Positions 308-35,030 of a stretch of DNA of 35,661 nt are shown piece by piece. Under the pieces are notes generated by a model. The model was not told where the DNA came from. It worked only from the letters and a program-made list of their open reading frames with translations, and did no database searches. The translations under genes were made by a program, and so were the position numbers. Within the stretch, counting starts at the first letter, position 1, and each line of letters opens with the position of its first letter. This stretch comes from a virus. The stretch is from positions 1 through 35,661 of IMG/VR virus record IMGVR_UViG_3300030389_001864; one strand, given 5' to 3'.

Positions 308-1459
308 ATGGCAGGAGGAAGGGGTAAATATGAGTGGTTGTGGTATGACCCATCCAGAGAGCAGTACCGTGCTCTGATCTATATCAACGGGGTCAGGAAG
401 AGACCCAAGTTGATGACACGGAAAGAGGAACTGTCTCTGATTGAGAACGGGGCAGAGGATTGGGAGATTGAGAAGATCCTGAACGAGAGGTATAAAGAGA
501 TCCTAGATCAGTATGTCAACCCTGCAGAGGGGATGACCCTGAATGCTCTCTTGAATGACTACTGGACCCTGCATCTCAGTAATGAGAAACACGGTGCTCA
601 GTATGAGCTTTACCATAATTTCTGGAGGAAGCAGTTAGGAAAGAGACTGATCCAGGAGATTAAGAAGGGAGACATTGCAGTAGCCAGAGACACACTGAAG
701 GACCGTGCTCCCTCCACTAAGAACAAGTATGTCTACAGTCTCAGTTCTGTCTTTGAGTTTGCAGTCGAGAGAGATTGGTTAGAAGACAACCCTTGCAGAC
801 GGGTCAAGTCCCTCAAGGTGAAAAATGAACGAGACCGATGGTTGTCCACAGAAGAGTTGGACAGACTGTATGAGGAGTGTAAGAACTCCAACAACCCACA
901 TCTTTATCTGGCAGTCAGGATATCCATCCAGACAGGGTGCAGACGGGGGGAACTGTTTCCTAAGAAGTCCTATAAGAAGGACAAAGAGGGCAGACCCCTC
1001 AGAGACCCACAGAAGGTCTTTGACAGTTATGTGGGAGGGTTGAAGTGGGAGAACGTGGACCTAGATAAAGGTCTGCTCCTGCTCACCCACACCAAGACAG
1101 GACTGAACCGCAAGGTTGCAGTCACAGGAGATGCTCTCGATATGCTCAGAGACCTCTCCAAGACACCCTGCATCCACGGATATGTATTCCACATAAACGG
1201 TGTACCCGTGGCAGGGCAGACTCCATTGAGGGAGTCTTTTGAACGAGCGTGTCAACGTGCAGGTCTGGAAGACTTTCACTGGCACGATCTCAGGCATTGT
1301 TGTGCATCCTATCTTGCCCAGAGTAAGGCAACCGATCTGGAGATTGCTATCCAGTTAGGTCACTCCGGGACAGATCTGGTGAAACGCTATGCCCACTTGA
1401 GGGAGGACAACTCCCTGAACCTTGTCGAGAAGATCGAAAGGAGAACAGGTAAATTATGA
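308..1459 (+). CDS. int: Tyrosine-family site-specific integrase
   Basis: This 383-aa tyrosine recombinase would integrate the phage at attP (2189-2430). The catalytic set is visible: R212 in TGCRRGEL, K263, H326-x2-R329 in WHDLRH, H352 in LGHSGT and nucleophile Y361 in KRYAHL. Residues about 75-165 form the core-binding SAM-like domain (it includes LLNDYWTLHL and NPCRRVKSLK). The N-terminal ~70 residues would be the arm-binding domain. An extra ~26-residue, lysine-rich stretch (about 217-243) separates GEL from GLKWENVDL, which are normally nearly contiguous. The start is ATG with AAGGAG eight bases upstream. The stop overlaps the next mini-gene as ATGA, so integrase and repressor share an operon. 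Confidence 0.95.
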   Translation: MAGGRGKYEWLWYDPSREQYRALIYINGVRKRPKLMTRKEELSLIENGAEDWEIEKILNERYKEILDQYVNPAEGMTLNALLNDYWTLHLSNEKHGAQYELYHNFWRKQLGKRLIQEIKKGDIAVARDTLKDRAPSTKNKYVYSLSSVFEFAVERDWLEDNPCRRVKSLKVKNERDRWLSTEELDRLYEECKNSNNPHLYLAVRISIQTGCRRGELFPKKSYKKDKEGRPLRDPQKVFDSYVGGLKWENVDLDKGLLLLTHTKTGLNRKVAVTGDALDMLRDLSKTPCIHGYVFHINGVPVAGQTPLRESFERACQRAGLEDFHWHDLRHCCASYLAQSKATDLEIAIQLGHSGTDLVKRYAHLREDNSLNLVEKIERRTGKL

Positions 1460-8445: not shown

Positions 8446-10302
8446 TTACAATAGACCTGCGATAAATGTTGACATTCCTGAAATATATGCAGCCCTTTCT
8501 GCAGAATCTGCAGCATATCTGGATGCTCCTGCACTCATTTTTGCAATCTCTAATTGAACATCAGCATTTAACTGTGCAATTTTTTCTGCTGACTCAATCC
8601 CCAACTTTGCAAGTGCAGTTCTAACATCTGCATCCATCTCTGCGAGATCGATCTTTACTTCCAAACCTTCCAAAGCCATTTGGCCTTGGTACGCAGCCAA
8701 ACCTAAAGCATCATCGAGTGCTCTGGACCTGAGTGCTAATTCTGCATTTGCTTTAGAAAGGGTGATGTCTTTCTCTAGGTTTGCTAATGCCACTGCAACG
8801 TCTATCCTGCCCTGTGCAAGTGCTCTCTGTCTCCGGGTGTCAAGGTTTGCCAACTCCACATCTCTGTCCAGACTAGCCTGAGTGATCACCCTCTGTAGGT
8901 TGGCTTGTTGGATGGAGAGGTTACGGACCTGATCCAGATCTGCTTGCTTAAATGCTTCTTGCTTCTTGGTCTCCAAGTTGACCATGGCAATCTGCAATTC
9001 CCGATCTCCTTGTTGCTTGTAAAGTTGAACCAGACGGTTCTCTGCATCAATCTGTTCTCTGGATCTGAGTTCTGCAGCCTGTCCTGAGAGGACTTGTGAG
9101 GTCTCTGCAAAGATGTTTCTGATCTGTCTTAGCTTGGCAGGGTCTGCAGTTCCTGCAGTTGCCCCCAGAAGACTTCTCAGGTTCTCTTCTGTGGCACGTT
9201 TAAGTTGTTGTTCTGCTACTGAAGATGCTTCTCCTCTAATTCTTCTTAATATATAATCTGCATATACTTCCTCACCTTCTACTACCTTATCAATTAAGTC
9301 CCTGTTTAGTTCTCCAACCTGCTCTAAAACTACTCTATCAGGAGCACCCACCTCACCTACTGCAACCTGATCTGCAGGAGCAACCTTACCTACTGTTGGT
9401 GCAGTTGCATCATCTACAGGGGCAGCCTGGATTGCAGTTCTAGCAAAGGCATCCACTTCTTCTGGAGTCAGAGTGAACCGTGCTTCTCTGACTGCAGTCT
9501 GCAACATAGAACCAAAGATGTTTCTCTGAGTGTCTTCACTGAGCCTATTGTAGTTTCCTAAACCTTGTGAGATCTGGTCATAAGTCAGGTTCTGAAGTGC
9601 AGTCTGGTCTAAGTTCTGAAATGCCCTGCCAATGTCATCAGACAGATTTTTGGTCTGCAGTTTAGATTCTTCAAAGGCAAGGATTTTCTTTTCGTCAAAC
9701 TTCTTCCTGACTTCATCTTCAGGTAAATCTGCAAAGGAAAATTTATCTGGTTCTTGGAGCTTTAAGGTATCGAACTCTTGGTCTGTAGTGAGGGTATCAA
9801 ATGCAGTTTCAAGTTGTGCTCTTTGAGTATCAATCCGTTGATTAGCAAGATCTGCATCTGCTTGAGATGAGTATTCTCTGCCTAACTTGTCGTAGTATTT
9901 GGGAGGTGGAGGTGGAGGGGGTCTGCGACTTTCAGAACTGTCACCTCCAGTATTTAAAGGTCTGCCAGTTACTGGATCAATTCCACGCTTAGATACTGTT
10001 TCAAAAGCATCATCTGCTCTTTGTTTTGCTTTTGCATCTTTTACTGATTGAGAATCTGGAGCTTGTGATTTTTCCTGTTCTTCACTTTCATCATCAACAT
10101 CATAACTCCGAATCGGCCCCCCACCTACTCCAAACCCCTGAGTTCCAGGGATGGGTTCTCCAGACCCTCCTGCATCACGGAGCATCTGTGCTTCACCAGG
10201 ATTGATAAAGGCCAGACCCTCACCTCTGGTTTGTTGTAGGAGTCTTGCAAGTCTCAGAAGTTCATCGTCTGTGAGACCACCGGGGTTCATTGGATTCATC
10301 AT
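8446..10302 (-). CDS. Internal virion protein with poly-proline and long helical repeats, 618 aa
   Basis: The N-terminal 130 residues are glycine-rich and acidic, and end in a seven-proline run (RRPPPPPPPKYY). Around 295-340 a short motif repeats (VGKVAPADQVAVGEVGAPDR). From about 345 to 600 the protein is one long A/L/D/R/Q-rich helix with recurring LANLD-type units, ending in a small-residue helix (AAYISGMSTFIAGLL). This is typical of podovirus internal core proteins. It overlaps the nozzle gene's end by four nt. Confidence 0.65.
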   Translation of the reverse strand: MMNPMNPGGLTDDELLRLARLLQQTRGEGLAFINPGEAQMLRDAGGSGEPIPGTQGFGVGGGPIRSYDVDDESEEQEKSQAPDSQSVKDAKAKQRADDAFETVSKRGIDPVTGRPLNTGGDSSESRRPPPPPPPKYYDKLGREYSSQADADLANQRIDTQRAQLETAFDTLTTDQEFDTLKLQEPDKFSFADLPEDEVRKKFDEKKILAFEESKLQTKNLSDDIGRAFQNLDQTALQNLTYDQISQGLGNYNRLSEDTQRNIFGSMLQTAVREARFTLTPEEVDAFARTAIQAAPVDDATAPTVGKVAPADQVAVGEVGAPDRVVLEQVGELNRDLIDKVVEGEEVYADYILRRIRGEASSVAEQQLKRATEENLRSLLGATAGTADPAKLRQIRNIFAETSQVLSGQAAELRSREQIDAENRLVQLYKQQGDRELQIAMVNLETKKQEAFKQADLDQVRNLSIQQANLQRVITQASLDRDVELANLDTRRQRALAQGRIDVAVALANLEKDITLSKANAELALRSRALDDALGLAAYQGQMALEGLEVKIDLAEMDADVRTALAKLGIESAEKIAQLNADVQLEIAKMSAGASRYAADSAERAAYISGMSTFIAGLL

Positions 10303-14599: not shown

Positions 14600-15199
14600 T
14601 TATTTAAGTTTTGTTATTTTAACAATAGTATATATGCTAACTACTGATGCTCCAGTATTTTCTGGAGCAACACCTAAACCGATAGTTGTCTTTGCAGTAG
14701 CAGTAAAATGCTTGATTCTGTAAATATTATTTGAGGTTAATGTGACGATTACAGCACCGAAACTTCTAGTTTGTGTTGAATCACCAAATGCGCTTAATTC
14801 AGATGACCCAATACCATTACTAACATATGCCCCTGCGGTTTGATCCCACAAGCGAGCATGGTGACGGTCTACTGATAAACCAGGAGCAGAAAATTCAATT
14901 AAATAAGTCCCTGCCCCTATTGTAAATTGTTTATTCCCAGAATCTACTGATACAATGCTATCGTCATCTTTGATAACAGTGTTTAAGTCCCTATCTTGAT
15001 AACCATTCCCAGTAGAAGTACCACCATCTACATCTAAGGCTTTTTCATCACAAATTATAGCTACCGAAATAGCATTACCAGTACCACCAGCAGGGAAAAT
15101 TACTAAAGAATCTAAAGTAACTGCACTAGATGACAATGTTGCTAGAGTTTTAGTGCCAGATTTATCTTTAATTAAATCAGCTTTTATTTCAGAACTCAT
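14600..15199 (-). CDS. Tail-fibre/receptor-binding protein, cassette B
   Basis: This 199-aa protein has the same N-terminal ~40-residue attachment segment as the fibre at 13719-14270. It is followed by a different domain that looks like a jelly-roll of the C1q/TNF type found in fibres (QFTIGAGTYLIEFSAPGLSV, then NIYRIKHFTATAKTTIGLGV). The conserved segment is also recognisable in DNA. It is followed two nt later by a chaperone gene. Likely a receptor-binding tip; the receptor is unknown. Confidence 0.7.
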   Translation of the reverse strand: MSSEIKADLIKDKSGTKTLATLSSSAVTLDSLVIFPAGGTGNAISVAIICDEKALDVDGGTSTGNGYQDRDLNTVIKDDDSIVSVDSGNKQFTIGAGTYLIEFSAPGLSVDRHHARLWDQTAGAYVSNGIGSSELSAFGDSTQTRSFGAVIVTLTSNNIYRIKHFTATAKTTIGLGVAPENTGASVVSIYTIVKITKLK

Positions 15200-21970: not shown

Positions 21971-23805
21971 ACGGGTAATGGCGATTCTGGGGTTTCTGGA
22001 GTCTCAGGCATCTCAGGCATTAAACCCGTTGGTGCAGGAGTCTCCCCTGCAGGAGAAGCAACTGCAGGTGATTCTGGAGACCCCTGCGGTTGTGCCTGTA
22101 GTTGTCTGAGCATGGTATTGCACTGGACAATAAAATCATCCAAGAGTGCAATCTTTTCGGGTTCTACACCCTTCTGTCTTGCTTCCAGATAGGCCAACTG
22201 AAACCTCTGTCTGGCAAGACTAAGATCCATGTACGGTTCTGGACCTATGTACTCTCCTTCATCCAAGATCTTGGAGATCCTCCACTCAATATCATTTTCT
22301 GCTGCTTCATAAATCTGTGTTACTGCATTCAGATCTGGGAAGTCGAGCAGTCTGGTGATCTGTTCCTTACTGTCTATGAGATTGATGTTGATCAACTCCT
22401 GGACGGTCTGCAGTTTTCCTGCAGGAAGTGACGGGAGAATGGACACAGGATAAGGTTCAAGAATGAACTCCTCCCGTGCCACACGGATCTTCTCAAAGTC
22501 CACTTTGGTGATCTCCCGTCTGAAAGTGGTCTGGACAGGGAATGATCCCTGCTCTGAGATAATCTCTTCTGCTAAGTCAAAGTAGTGTTCTGCAGCATTC
22601 ATGAATGCTTGCTCATAACGTCTTCCAATGAGGATGAACCTCTCTGTCTCAATGTCATGGTAGATTCTGAGGGCTGCCCCTGATTCCAGACCTGCAGGTT
22701 TTTTCCCTGTGGCAGACAACTCTGAGATCCCTGAGATCTCGTATGCCCTCTGATACAGTCTGTCCAGATGGTTGTAGACTTCAGGGTGCATGGCTGCAGG
22801 AGTGTAAACCGTTGGTGGTTGACCGTTGTAGTGAATGATCGTTCCAGGTTGGTTCCTAATGTGAGAGGGTGCCACCTTGGACCCTGCCTGTAAAAACACT
22901 AAAGGAACACTCAGAAGGTGCATGGACTGCTGAATCCTGACACACAGGGCATTGATCTCTCTCTGGACAGGGTACAGTTGCTCTGCTAAAGGTATCCCAC
23001 CAAATCCCACGATGGAATCACTCCATTTCAGGAACAAAAACGGAAACTGAGACCGTGTGTACTCCTCATCCACCAGTGTGACGTTCTCGATACAGATTAC
23101 GTGTCTTCCATCACCTGATGTGGGAGATGTGGGCAGGTGCCATGCTTCCACACACTCAATCATGTCTGAATCTTCCGTTTCATACTGTTTTGAAGACCCA
23201 AAACTGTTTATTTGGTTGGCAAAACCCGGAAAACGGTCCAAAAGGAACGATTTGTGGACTTTTTTGACCTGATAGAGATTCTGAGGTTCTCCATACAGTG
23301 CATCATCCATGTCCCAGAGGATTTCATTTGCAAAAACCCTCTCGACATAGATTTTTCCGCTTTCTTGGTAGATTTTGAGCACCCCAAGGTCAAAAATGCA
23401 GGAATCCTGGAAGATTTTGGGCATCACCTCATACAGTTTTGTCTGCATGAACAGACCCTCCATCATCCTGCCCATCATCTTGGCTTTGTTACGGAGTGCA
23501 TAGTCTCCACCTTCTGTAAGGTACATGGGTCTGGGTCTGTTCTTACCAATCTTGGAAGTGATGGTGTCAATCATGGACTGAGTGACATTCAACCTCATCT
23601 TCATGTCATCTTTACGGTGCATGGAGTACCCTGCAGACTTCACCACACCCTGTCTGAAGTCCTCTAACGAGTATGTCCTCTGTGAATACACCCTCAGATG
23701 CTCCAGATTCGCAATCATGCGGTCATAGTGATTGTTATTGAGTTCATGGATCACTCCCATCAACTCTGCATGACAATCATCTAACTCAGATTCCCACCAA
23801 AACAT
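21967..23805 (-). CDS. Portal protein
   Basis: This 612-aa protein fits a podovirus portal by length and by order (terminase, portal, scaffold, capsid). Recognisable segments are NVTQSMIDTITSKIGKNRPR near residue 75, FQDSCIFDLGVLKIY, QREINALCVRIQQSMHL in the stem/clip region, and ISGISELSATG-type sequence in the crown-proximal part. The last ~60 residues are P/E-rich with repeated MPETPETPESP and probably disordered. It would form the dodecameric DNA channel and contact terminase. The start overlaps the upstream small gene as TGATG. Confidence 0.85.
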   Translation of the reverse strand: MFWWESELDDCHAELMGVIHELNNNHYDRMIANLEHLRVYSQRTYSLEDFRQGVVKSAGYSMHRKDDMKMRLNVTQSMIDTITSKIGKNRPRPMYLTEGGDYALRNKAKMMGRMMEGLFMQTKLYEVMPKIFQDSCIFDLGVLKIYQESGKIYVERVFANEILWDMDDALYGEPQNLYQVKKVHKSFLLDRFPGFANQINSFGSSKQYETEDSDMIECVEAWHLPTSPTSGDGRHVICIENVTLVDEEYTRSQFPFLFLKWSDSIVGFGGIPLAEQLYPVQREINALCVRIQQSMHLLSVPLVFLQAGSKVAPSHIRNQPGTIIHYNGQPPTVYTPAAMHPEVYNHLDRLYQRAYEISGISELSATGKKPAGLESGAALRIYHDIETERFILIGRRYEQAFMNAAEHYFDLAEEIISEQGSFPVQTTFRREITKVDFEKIRVAREEFILEPYPVSILPSLPAGKLQTVQELININLIDSKEQITRLLDFPDLNAVTQIYEAAENDIEWRISKILDEGEYIGPEPYMDLSLARQRFQLAYLEARQKGVEPEKIALLDDFIVQCNTMLRQLQAQPQGSPESPAVASPAGETPAPTGLMPEMPETPETPESPLPV

Positions 23806-28554: not shown

Positions 28555-28881
28555 ATGACAAAAAGAGAAGCTTATTTAATTGGCAGAGAAACAGGCAATA
28601 GCATTGCAGAACATAATTTTCATGACTTCATTAATCAGACTGATGAAGTGATTGATTTCATATCAACCAATCTCTATCAGGATGATGAACCTGTCTATCA
28701 GTTTCAGTGCTTAGTTTCACAGATTGAAAGTGAGCACTATAGACAGTTTTCTCCTTTTGAATTCACTGCACAGAACTTCAACGAATCCCATGATCCTGAT
28801 GGAATGTGGTCTGAATATGAAAAAGGAGTTTGGAATGGATCAAAACAAACTTTTCACAAACTTAACAGGAGACAGAAATGA
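28555..28881 (+). CDS. Small early protein, 108 aa
   Basis: ATG 28555 is chosen because it carries the repeated AAGGAGACAGAAATG cassette; an in-frame ATG at 28525 lies within the previous gene and has no ribosome site. The product (MTKREAYLIGRETGNSIAEH, then FDPDGMWSEYEKGVWNGSKQ-like end) is acidic and ends NRRQK. Its final codons are again the ribosome site of the next gene (ATGA overlap). Function unknown. Confidence 0.75.
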   Translation: MTKREAYLIGRETGNSIAEHNFHDFINQTDEVIDFISTNLYQDDEPVYQFQCLVSQIESEHYRQFSPFEFTAQNFNESHDPDGMWSEYEKGVWNGSKQTFHKLNRRQK

Positions 28882-29507
28882 ACAGAACAGAACTTAAAAC
28901 TTGGATTGAAGAAAACTTGGATTGGTATGAAATGAGCCATGATTACAGTGAACCGGGATATTCACTTGATGAAGGAAAAGATCTGATCTTTTTCGCTGAT
29001 TGGAATCAGGTGAAGGATCAGGAAATCATGGATCAAATTGAAGAAAATTTCATGGTTGAGTGGTCTGATGAGTGGTATCAATGCGAAGACTGCGGAAAGT
29101 CTATCAGGACTTCTCCTGATTGCTACCAATGGCAGCCCTATTATCACTTATTCAATGAATGTGAACCTGTCTGTTTTGATTGTATCAGTGACAATGCAGG
29201 ACTTCAGGAAACTTTAATTGAAGACTTTGTGATTAAAGGAAATGAAATAGATCCTGAAAAAGACAGTGTAAATTTCAGGCTTTTGCAAATCGATAACTTT
29301 GAACTGGAAAAGCACTGTTTTGAGGTGATGAATAATGAGCACTATGAGAGTGGTTTTCATCCTGGACAGAATGATGATCCCGTCAAAATATTTAAAAACA
29401 TGAATCAATCTTTTTTGGAATCAAATCATTTTATTTTTAAACAGTCTGAACAGAGTCAATTTTACATGAAGTTTGATCTTTATTTCAGACCTATAGAAAC
29501 AAGATAG
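28878..29507 (+). CDS. Early zinc-finger protein, 209 aa
   Basis: The protein is acidic, with a probable zinc site made by C69-x2-C72 (YQCEDCGKSIRT) and C99-x2-C102 (CFDCI); C82 and C95 are extra. N-terminal ~60 residues are helical and acidic, and the C-terminal 100 residues are mixed alpha/beta (NFELEKHCFEVMNNEHYESG). I recall such zinc ribbons in unnamed phage early proteins. A rho-independent terminator follows at once. Confidence 0.75.
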   Translation: MNRTELKTWIEENLDWYEMSHDYSEPGYSLDEGKDLIFFADWNQVKDQEIMDQIEENFMVEWSDEWYQCEDCGKSIRTSPDCYQWQPYYHLFNECEPVCFDCISDNAGLQETLIEDFVIKGNEIDPEKDSVNFRLLQIDNFELEKHCFEVMNNEHYESGFHPGQNDDPVKIFKNMNQSFLESNHFIFKQSEQSQFYMKFDLYFRPIETR

Positions 29508-31401: not shown

Positions 31402-31929
31402 TTACCAAGTGTGTCTGTTAAGTTTGGGGATCAATTCCCCCTCTGAGTTCTGCTCTGCTTCAACACATTCGTATTCAATCCCATCAATCACTTTGTAAAA
31501 AATCTTCATCGTGCTCCCATCCTCCATCGAAACAGTGAACGGGTATCTGGTGGGTTGAGGTTTCACTTTCTTCTCCTCGACTTCAGTCATCAGTTCCTCC
31601 AGTTTCCTCCGCATCTCCCCCTCCTCTGGGACGTAGCGTTCCTTCTCTGGTCCCTCCAAGAGTTTCTGATTGGGATCTGCCTTCCACCCTGCTTTCTCTC
31701 TGGAGACATGGCAGAGGTCTCTGAACCTCGCTATCGAGGGCATGAACTTCTGTTCCTTCAGACAGGTTCTCAGACCGTGTGCCAGTGCATCCTCAGTAAG
31801 ATCCTGCAGTGAGGTCATCCAGTTCCCCCGGTCTAAGTCTGAGATCTCAATCGGATCTCCGTTGGGTTTGCGGTAGTTACTGCTCAGACTCTTGAGCACA
31901 GCATCAATGGTTTGGTTTTTTGCACTCAT
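31402..31929 (-). CDS. Lambda P-like helicase loader
   Basis: This 175-aa protein has NWMTSLQDLTEDALAHGLRT followed by FMPSIARFRDLC near residues 35-70, the signature of phage replication protein P. The remainder is charged and linker-rich. It would bring the host DnaB helicase to the O-like initiator. The gene starts in TGATG with the initiator's stop, reproducing the lambda O-P order. No phage helicase is encoded. Confidence 0.7.
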   Translation of the reverse strand: MSAKNQTIDAVLKSLSSNYRKPNGDPIEISDLDRGNWMTSLQDLTEDALAHGLRTCLKEQKFMPSIARFRDLCHVSREKAGWKADPNQKLLEGPEKERYVPEEGEMRRKLEELMTEVEEKKVKPQPTRYPFTVSMEDGSTMKIFYKVIDGIEYECVEAEQNSEGELIPKLNRHTW

Positions 31930-32696
31930 CAGTTCAGTTGTTTGTTGAGTCCACGTTGAAGGAGGTTCAGATTGATCAGTGCTTCTTTAGTCTCAGGTGC
32001 ATTCATCTTTTCCTCATTTGCACTTTTTTCAATTTCATCTTTTGTTCTTTGTGCTCGATATTCTTTAAAGTTTGGCCCGTACAATGTTTTGGGTCTTAGA
32101 TATTGATCCATCTTGGGATTGTTCAACCACTCTTCAGTTTTCACTTTATTAACATAAATAAAATCTTCTAAAGTAAATCCCTCATTGAACCGTGCCTTAA
32201 TTTTTTTCTTTGTGTCCTCTGCCCACCACTGATGTTTTCTTTTTGATCTGTTATTCAAATCTTCAATGATGTCCTGATAAGGTGGAGGTGGAGACTTAAC
32301 GACTGCACTATCTATATCTCTATTACTCAATACTGTAATATTTTCTATATAGTGTGCTTGGGTACCATGGGTGGTACCTGTGTCAAGTTTGGTACCCTCT
32401 TTTTGGGACCCTGTGTCAAGTTTGGTACGTACCACGGGTGGTACCCTGTCAGGGTTCAATTCGTAGGTGCAGACCCCCTCAGAGTAATCTCTGGAAAGAT
32501 AACCTTTTTTCTCCAGATTTGATGTGGTTCTGGAGATATGTTGTTCCTGTATTTGAAGCAGTTCTGAGAGGTACCTGCGTTTGATCTGCTTCTTTTGTTT
32601 TCTGGAGAAACTTAATATAGCAAGCAGGACTCTAATCTCGTTTTTACTTAAATCAGAGTCCTTTACTATCAGTTTCATCACTTCCATGTGATTCAT
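31929..32696 (-). CDS. O-like replication initiator with internal origin
   Basis: In this 255-aa protein the N-terminal winged helix (about 12-80: LSKNEIRVLLAILSFSRKQK, LLQIQEQHISRTTSNLEKKG) would bind origin repeats. A linker at 81-135 is encoded by the repeats themselves (RTKLDTG and GTKLDTG). The C-terminus (about 140-215) matches the conserved phage replication C-terminal domain: DIIEDLNNRS, IKARFNEGFTLEDF, EEWLNNPKMDQYLRPKTLYG. AGGAG lies about nine bases before ATG 32696. The P-like gene follows directly. Confidence 0.8.
   Translation of the reverse strand: MNHMEVMKLIVKDSDLSKNEIRVLLAILSFSRKQKKQIKRRYLSELLQIQEQHISRTTSNLEKKGYLSRDYSEGVCTYELNPDRVPPVVRTKLDTGSQKEGTKLDTGTTHGTQAHYIENITVLSNRDIDSAVVKSPPPPYQDIIEDLNNRSKRKHQWWAEDTKKKIKARFNEGFTLEDFIYVNKVKTEEWLNNPKMDQYLRPKTLYGPNFKEYRAQRTKDEIEKSANEEKMNAPETKEALINLNLLQRGLNKQLN
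32308..32445 (-). other. Candidate replication origin: iterons plus AT-rich stretch
   Basis: Two TGTGTCAAGTTTGGTAC(C/G) direct repeats (32379-32396, 32412-32429) alternate with two near-palindromes, GGTACCATGGGTGGTACC (32361-32378) and GTACCACGGGTGGTACC (32429-32445). In gene direction they are followed by an AT-rich stretch (about 32352-32308), a likely unwinding element. Repeats in the middle of the initiator gene, then AT-rich DNA, is the layout of lambda ori. Confidence 0.75.
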
Positions 32697-34687: not shown

Positions 34688-34870
34688 CTAACCATTGACT
34701 TGATTTCTCACCCAAGACTCTGCTTGAGCTTTAGAATGAAAAGGTCTGATTGCCACAGACCCTCCCTGTCCTTTGTGGTTTTTTTTTACCACCTCCCACA
34801 TCTGGTGAAACCCACTGTACTTAATCGTGTAACCCTTATATTGGTACTTCCTGATCCAGTCGTTTTTCAC
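34688..34870 (-). CDS. Small protein overlapping csrA, 60 aa
   Basis: GTG 34870 is preceded by AAGGAGTGGG within the end of csrA; the frame is open further to an ATG at 34939 deep inside csrA, which is less likely. The product (starts VKNDWIRKYQYKGYTIKYSG) is basic, with beta strands and a helix AQAESWVRNQV, similar in style to small double-strand-binding or viral accessory proteins. Overlap with csrA is 35 nt. No named family. Confidence 0.6.
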   Translation of the reverse strand: MKNDWIRKYQYKGYTIKYSGFHQMWEVVKKNHKGQGGSVAIRPFHSKAQAESWVRNQVNG

Positions 34871-35030
34871 CCCACTCCTTATCTCTGGTAATTCGCAGAT
34901 TCTCGTCTGCATCGATATGTAGCCAGACGGTCTTTCCACTGACTTTTTTTATTTCAACCTCTGCTATCACACGGTCACCCCGTTTAATGAAAATACCCTG
35001 CTTTACTTTTCTACTGATTACTAAACCCAT
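34836..35030 (-). CDS. csrA: CsrA-family RNA-binding regulator
   Basis: The 64-aa product follows the CsrA pattern: MGLVISRKVKQGIFIKRGDR, then VAEVEIK-like strands, VWLHIDADENLRITRDKEW. The conserved beginning with R7 (the L4/R6 region of CsrA) and the R48-equivalent at the ITRDKEW end are present. CsrA dimers bind GGA in mRNA leaders and repress or alter translation. A strong AAAGGAGTGAT precedes ATG 35030, itself a possible autoregulatory GGA. It may reprogramme host metabolism or phage translation. Confidence 0.8.
   Translation of the reverse strand: MGLVISRKVKQGIFIKRGDRVIAEVEIKKVSGKTVWLHIDADENLRITRDKEWGEKRLDQEVPI

Follow-up and report, generated by a model that had tools for sequence, protein, structure and literature searches.

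Organization of the replication locus

The window, i.e. the whole stretch of DNA analysed, comprises 35,661 nt (positions 1-35,661 of IMGVR_UViG_3300030389_001864) and derives from an uncultivated phage. It contains a gene for a predicted replication initiator with an internal repeat array, followed by a P-like gene (Table 1). As a correction to an earlier note, the initiator gene bearing the array is read on the minus strand. An SSB-like gene and a PD-(D/E)XK exonuclease gene are located upstream of it. A small CsrA-like gene (34836-35030, minus strand; PF02599, 28.6 bits, cut-off 27) also lies upstream of the replication genes.

Table 1. Features of the window discussed in the text.
Feature	Position	Strand	Basis or remark
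Integrase gene	308-1459		
P-like gene, candidate helicase loader	31402-31929	-	N-terminal aa 1-81, fold match to lambda P; PHROG 109
Initiator gene, 255 aa: winged helix, disordered linker, Phg_2220_C	31929-32696	-	Pfam PF09524, E 1.9e-19; PHROG 428, E 8e-30
Phg_2220_C codons (aa 143-213)	32058-32270	-	PF09524 match; pLDDT >87
AT-rich tract past the iterons, putative DNA unwinding element	32300-32350	-	AT 0.80 at 32320-32349; order as in lambda O
Near-palindrome P2, 18 bp, GGTACC ends	32361-32378	-	Sequence; + strand reading GGTACCATGGGTGGTACC
Direct repeat R2, 19 bp, GTACCAAACTTGACACAGG	32377-32395	-	
Degenerate half-site GGTCCCAAA	32402-32410	-	GGTACCAAA in relative L002
Direct repeat R1, 19 bp, GTACCAAACTTGACACAGG	32410-32428	-	
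Near-palindrome P1, 18 bp, GGTACC ends	32428-32445	-	Sequence; + strand reading CGTACCACGGGTGGTACC
Winged-helix codons (aa 1-80)	32457-32696	-	AlphaFold2 model, pLDDT mostly 74-90 past the first ten residues

Repeat array and chance expectation

A sequence-only reading had described two 18-bp direct repeats alternating with two near-palindromes within 32308-32445. The direct repeats are present and exact over 19 bp, but the order is palindrome-repeat-repeat-palindrome, and the array itself covers 32361-32445, whereas 32308-32360 belongs to the AT-rich side. The array is found about 250-340 bp inside the initiator gene, away from the gene start. R1 and R2 share a reading frame at a distance of 33 bp, and a third copy is absent from the window when up to 3 mismatches are allowed (0.02 matches expected).

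GGTACC by itself is not rare (7 sites in the window, 3.5 expected); unusual is its clustering. Ten matches to GTACC/GGTAC fall within 90 bp, compared to a mean maximum of 2.4 and a largest value of 4 when the window was shuffled 300 times with a first-order Markov model. The initiator gene as a whole has 12, compared to a mean of 3.0 and a largest value of 10 in 5000 synonymous-codon shuffles, in which protein and codon use were kept (p = 0.0002). Identical codons in both copies of the encoded TKLDTG peptide occurred in 0.5% of codon shuffles. Since the motif was chosen after viewing the sequence, a motif-free coverage test is fairer: in local 8-mer repeat coverage, the array bin ranks first in the window with 75 of 100 nt, the largest value in 60 shuffled windows being 59. 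Three further bins (14931, 21981 and 28841) also exceeded the shuffle maximum, corresponding to local repeat clusters at 14931-15040, 21981-22090 and 28841-28950.

The spacing and common frame of the two copies would also be expected if a 33-bp unit had been duplicated in frame by chance and had no DNA function. Disordered linkers can accommodate this kind of event, but one duplication yields neither the palindromes nor the number of half-sites.

A cumulative GC-skew minimum near 32.4 kb had been proposed as a check; the minimum was found at the window end instead. The check is of no help because cumulative skew tracks gene strand. GC skew was therefore dropped as an origin marker; following the direction of transcription, it neither supports nor refutes the location.

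Initiator protein

The initiator matches PHROG 428 ('replication initiation protein') over aa 8-233. The Pfam gathering score for Phg_2220_C was clearly passed (69.9 bits, cut-off 27), while TIGR02220 was slightly missed (66.2 of 66.65 bits). The C-terminal domain is accordingly of the replisome-organiser type, as had been claimed, and the lambda O C-terminal domain is absent. In the N-terminal region, matches to Phage_rep_O, DnaD_N and HTH_36 were weak and below threshold. The score was 19.5 bits for PF04492 (cut-off 28.7) and 21.2 bits for TIGR01610 (cut-off 45.5), and the match to PHROG 277, the family of lambda O, is restricted to aa 12-69.

Both the winged helix and the disordered linker of Phg_2220_C initiators are present in the AlphaFold2 model, in which aa 91-133 (linker) have pLDDT values <50. 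The assignment of the repeats to linker codons, between the winged helix and the Phg_2220_C domain, was confirmed. As this linker is without predicted structure, protein structure does not explain the repeats, and the linker, being disordered, would tolerate the repeated TKLDTG peptide.

The best Foldseek matches of the initiator were winged helices, mostly MarR/ArsR-type regulators; only generic winged helices were obtained, none below E 0.02. A sequence search of solved structures gave nothing notable for either the initiator or the P-like protein. Since repressors, too, show a winged helix and palindromic sites, the repeats might be operators, bound by the initiator for autoregulation while replication starts elsewhere. 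However, the sites are far inside the gene instead of at its start, and homologues have their origin at that very place (PMC5499656, PMC6316719). Hence, we consider a purely regulatory role unlikely, although binding of the initiator may serve both autoregulation and replication.

AT-rich tract and P-like gene

AT-rich DNA and then a P-like gene follow the array, in agreement with the sequence-only reading. The tract is short, its AT content being 80% at 32320-32349 and 60% just beyond. The N-terminal domain of the next gene product (aa 1-81) has a fold match to lambda P as seen in its complex with DnaB (9oa1; Z 9.7, rmsd 2.2, 76 residues, 21% identity); the next-best match had Z 5.4. Confidence of the model is low (mean pLDDT 60), with values of 76-88 for the first 70 residues and low values in the C-terminal half. 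The lambda P family, PHROG 109 ('P-like helicase loader'), was matched weakly (E 1.6e-4, aa 35-81), and a tblastn search of the protein against phage records gave zero matches.

The gene also matches PHROG 9804 weakly. In Aeromonas phage 4_D05 (L125, 2306-2887), the gene after a Phg_2220_C initiator matches the same PHROG; the pairing of such an initiator with a PHROG 9804-type gene may recur in Gram-negative phages.

Comparison with a close relative

A single close relative was found (L002, IMG/VR). When viral contigs were scanned for the repeat pattern, L002 was recovered along with a single chance match in unrelated, repeat-rich DNA, and a search with the C-terminal half of the initiator alone returned no relative. 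The two initiator proteins are 65% identical, unevenly spread. In blocks of 60 nt, DNA identity is 0.88-1.00 in the winged helix, 0.95 at 32390-32449, 0.80 at 32330-32389, 0.53 at 32210-32329 and 0.58-0.75 in the C-domain codons. Both 19-bp repeats of L002 carry the same two-base change (AAACTTGAC to AAAACTGAC), L002 has GGTACC where the window has the degenerate GGTCCC, and the arms of its second palindrome, GGTACCAC and GTGGTACC, match perfectly. For the single pair compared, the pattern is compatible with sites that stay alike because one protein uses them, and also with a recent recombination of the block in place of constraint. That the half-sites are kept while the adjoining C-domain codons are not speaks against a functionless duplication.

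Survey of Phg_2220_C initiators

The survey set, drawn from viral contigs, genomes, phages and plasmids, consisted of 32 initiators with <80% mutual identity. The 240 nt preceding the C-domain were scored for local-repeat coverage and compared with synonymous-codon shuffles. Of the homologous genes, whose comparison had been proposed earlier, 20 of 32 have significant linker repeats (p < 0.05; 14 below 0.01) and 12 do not, several Bacillaceae members being without any; for the rest of the gene the number is 3 of 32. Lambda O served as positive control (p = 0.007) and lambda P as negative control (p = 0.59). Other genes of the window, which are not thought to be origins, reach p ≤ 0.01; thus, the test detects repeats, not origins. 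The repeat sequence varies by phage (GGAACC in r1t, AAAACCGTTAAYGG in 80alpha, GATTCCCACTTAGGA in L008). Considering this recurrence across the family together with the palindromes and the pattern in L002, we regard a chance duplication as very unlikely.

Two further elements were observed in the relatives. A short hairpin whose loop is A-rich or TGA directly precedes the C-domain codons in L003, L008, L068, L109, L114, L117, L122, L123, L129 and others. Its forms include GTCGGG-caa-CCCGAC, GTCAGG-taaa-CCTGAC and GTCTGGC-tga-GCCAGAC, in which both arms change together. Compared with codon shuffles, the best hairpin reaches p < 0.05 in 14 of the 32 relatives; a search of the window for it found none. 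The hairpin may serve in priming or loading, or may mark a boundary of recombination. An AT-rich element close to AGAGATTACTACAGAG (peptide TEITTE) follows the iterons in the linker of L092, L104, L117, L120, L123 and L124. It spans records of Bacillaceae, Staphylococcus, Klebsiella and Providencia despite differing iterons; codon shuffles of the most repetitive members sometimes approach it.

Association of the repeats with the winged helix

A small, hand-picked set of staphylococcal phages was used for a domain-swap comparison. Phages phi92 and BE21 have the N-domain (83/95) and the repeat type in common, while their C-domains are unrelated. In 80alpha and phiSa2wa_st5, the C-domain is common (99/105), and N-domain and repeats differ. 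BE20 has an 80alpha-like N-domain (77/95) and keeps the GGAAAAACC frame with altered cores. The AT-rich tract is common to phi92, 80alpha, BE20 and BE21 despite two unrelated kinds of C-domain. In this small set, judged by sequence, the repeats go with the winged-helix DNA-binding domain and not with the C-domain. On a tentative and rather doubtful extension of this, winged helix, iterons and AT-rich tract would form one exchangeable cassette of origin specificity, and recombination immediately downstream of the AT tract would place the whole cassette on one loader-contacting C-terminal domain or another; in the window, it would be joined to a Phg_2220_C domain that works with a lambda P-like loader.

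Repeats near the integrase gene

Direct and inverted copies of CTGGTCCCA/CAGTCCCA are found at 2351-2430, flanked by genes for a repressor-like HTH protein and an M15 peptidase. The adjoining minus-strand stretch at 2255-2300, GCGAGAGTGGTGGAATTGGTAGACACGCAAGATTTAGGAG, resembles the 5' part of a tRNA-Leu; ARAGORN detected no whole tRNA there. This stretch, near the integrase gene, is possibly an attP core.

If the main origin were at another repeat cluster of the window, 2351-2430 would be an example, as it contains several CTGGTCCCA/CAGTCCCA copies and has the 9-mer GGTCCCAAA in common with the degenerate site of the array. Yet, one common 9-mer is weak and the cluster is far from the replication genes. 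Its position near the integrase gene and the tRNA-Leu-like stretch makes integrase arm sites the likelier reading, for which reason it was also rejected as a second origin. A main origin outside the initiator gene at such a cluster appears the least likely of the alternatives weighed here, with very little probability left to it.

Proposed origin of replication

The computed basis of the origin reading consists of the repeats, the domain layout, the gene order, the family pattern and the conservation of the array DNA alongside the winged helix. From these sequence features, 32361-32445 together with the AT-rich DNA at about 32300-32350 is predicted to be a theta origin inside its own initiator gene, with a probability of roughly 0.87. 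The winged helix of the initiator would bind the iterons at their GGTACC half-sites, the resulting complex would melt the AT-rich tract, and the C-terminal domain and the P-like protein would bring in the host replicative helicase.

The uncultivated phage now has a short candidate origin. As the family comparison suggests, the repeats may reveal which DNA sequence a given phage winged helix binds, and the origins of such phages may be found via repeats in linker codons. The occurrence of a Phg_2220_C initiator next to a putative P-like loader would be of use in asking which part of the initiator chooses the loader.

Comparison with known systems

In lambda and Stx phages, iterons and AT-rich tract lie in the middle of O (PMC7466680). 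As in lambda, the iterons of the window are in the initiator linker, and the AT-rich tract is on the C-terminal side; the next gene is P in lambda and one with a P-like N-terminal fold in the window. Unlike lambda O, the window's initiator has a Phg_2220_C domain; its winged helix matches lambda O below threshold only, and its iteron sequence is unrelated.

The initiator is homologous to ORF20 of 80alpha (32% identity over 89%, tblastn) and has the same domain layout. Deletion of ORF20 could not be complemented in trans and a plasmid with ORF20-21 replicates autonomously, which led the authors to propose an embedded origin (PMC5499656); NC_009526 has a rep_origin annotated at 9674-9899. Linker repeats are likewise followed by an AT-rich tract, and a loader gene is next, where the window has its candidate loader gene. 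The repeat is AAAACCGTTAAYGG, the loader is DnaC-like rather than P-like, and the C-domain is preceded by a GC-rich hairpin that is absent from the window.

In Bacillus phage SPP1, gp38 binds the direct repeats of oriL inside gene 38, beside an AT-rich unwinding element (PMC6316719). By this published description, the replisome organiser's own gene holds direct repeats and an AT-rich element as in the window; SPP1 differs in its loader G39P, its own helicase G40P and a second origin, oriR (PMC6316719).

ORF11 of Lactococcus phage r1t (NC_004302) has a Phg_2220_C-type C-domain (40% identity over aa 139-216), and its linker contains four GGAACC hexamers followed by repeated AT-rich DNA. It differs from the window by GGAACC instead of GGTACC and by a DnaC-like loader, and its N-domain was unmatched in the search used. 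In Francisella phage KIRK, internal repeats of the Phg_2220_C gene Fhv_0043 were proposed as a lambda-like origin (PMC7924643). This in-gene origin is a prediction like that of the window, and the next gene of KIRK is G39P-like.

The sequence-only reading had suggested a lambda-type origin plan kept or re-invented with a different initiator. This combination is not new, an origin inside a replisome-organiser gene being described for SPP1 and, in the homologous gene, for 80alpha, and proposed for KIRK; with these precedents, the plan found in the window is already established, including this type of C-terminal domain.
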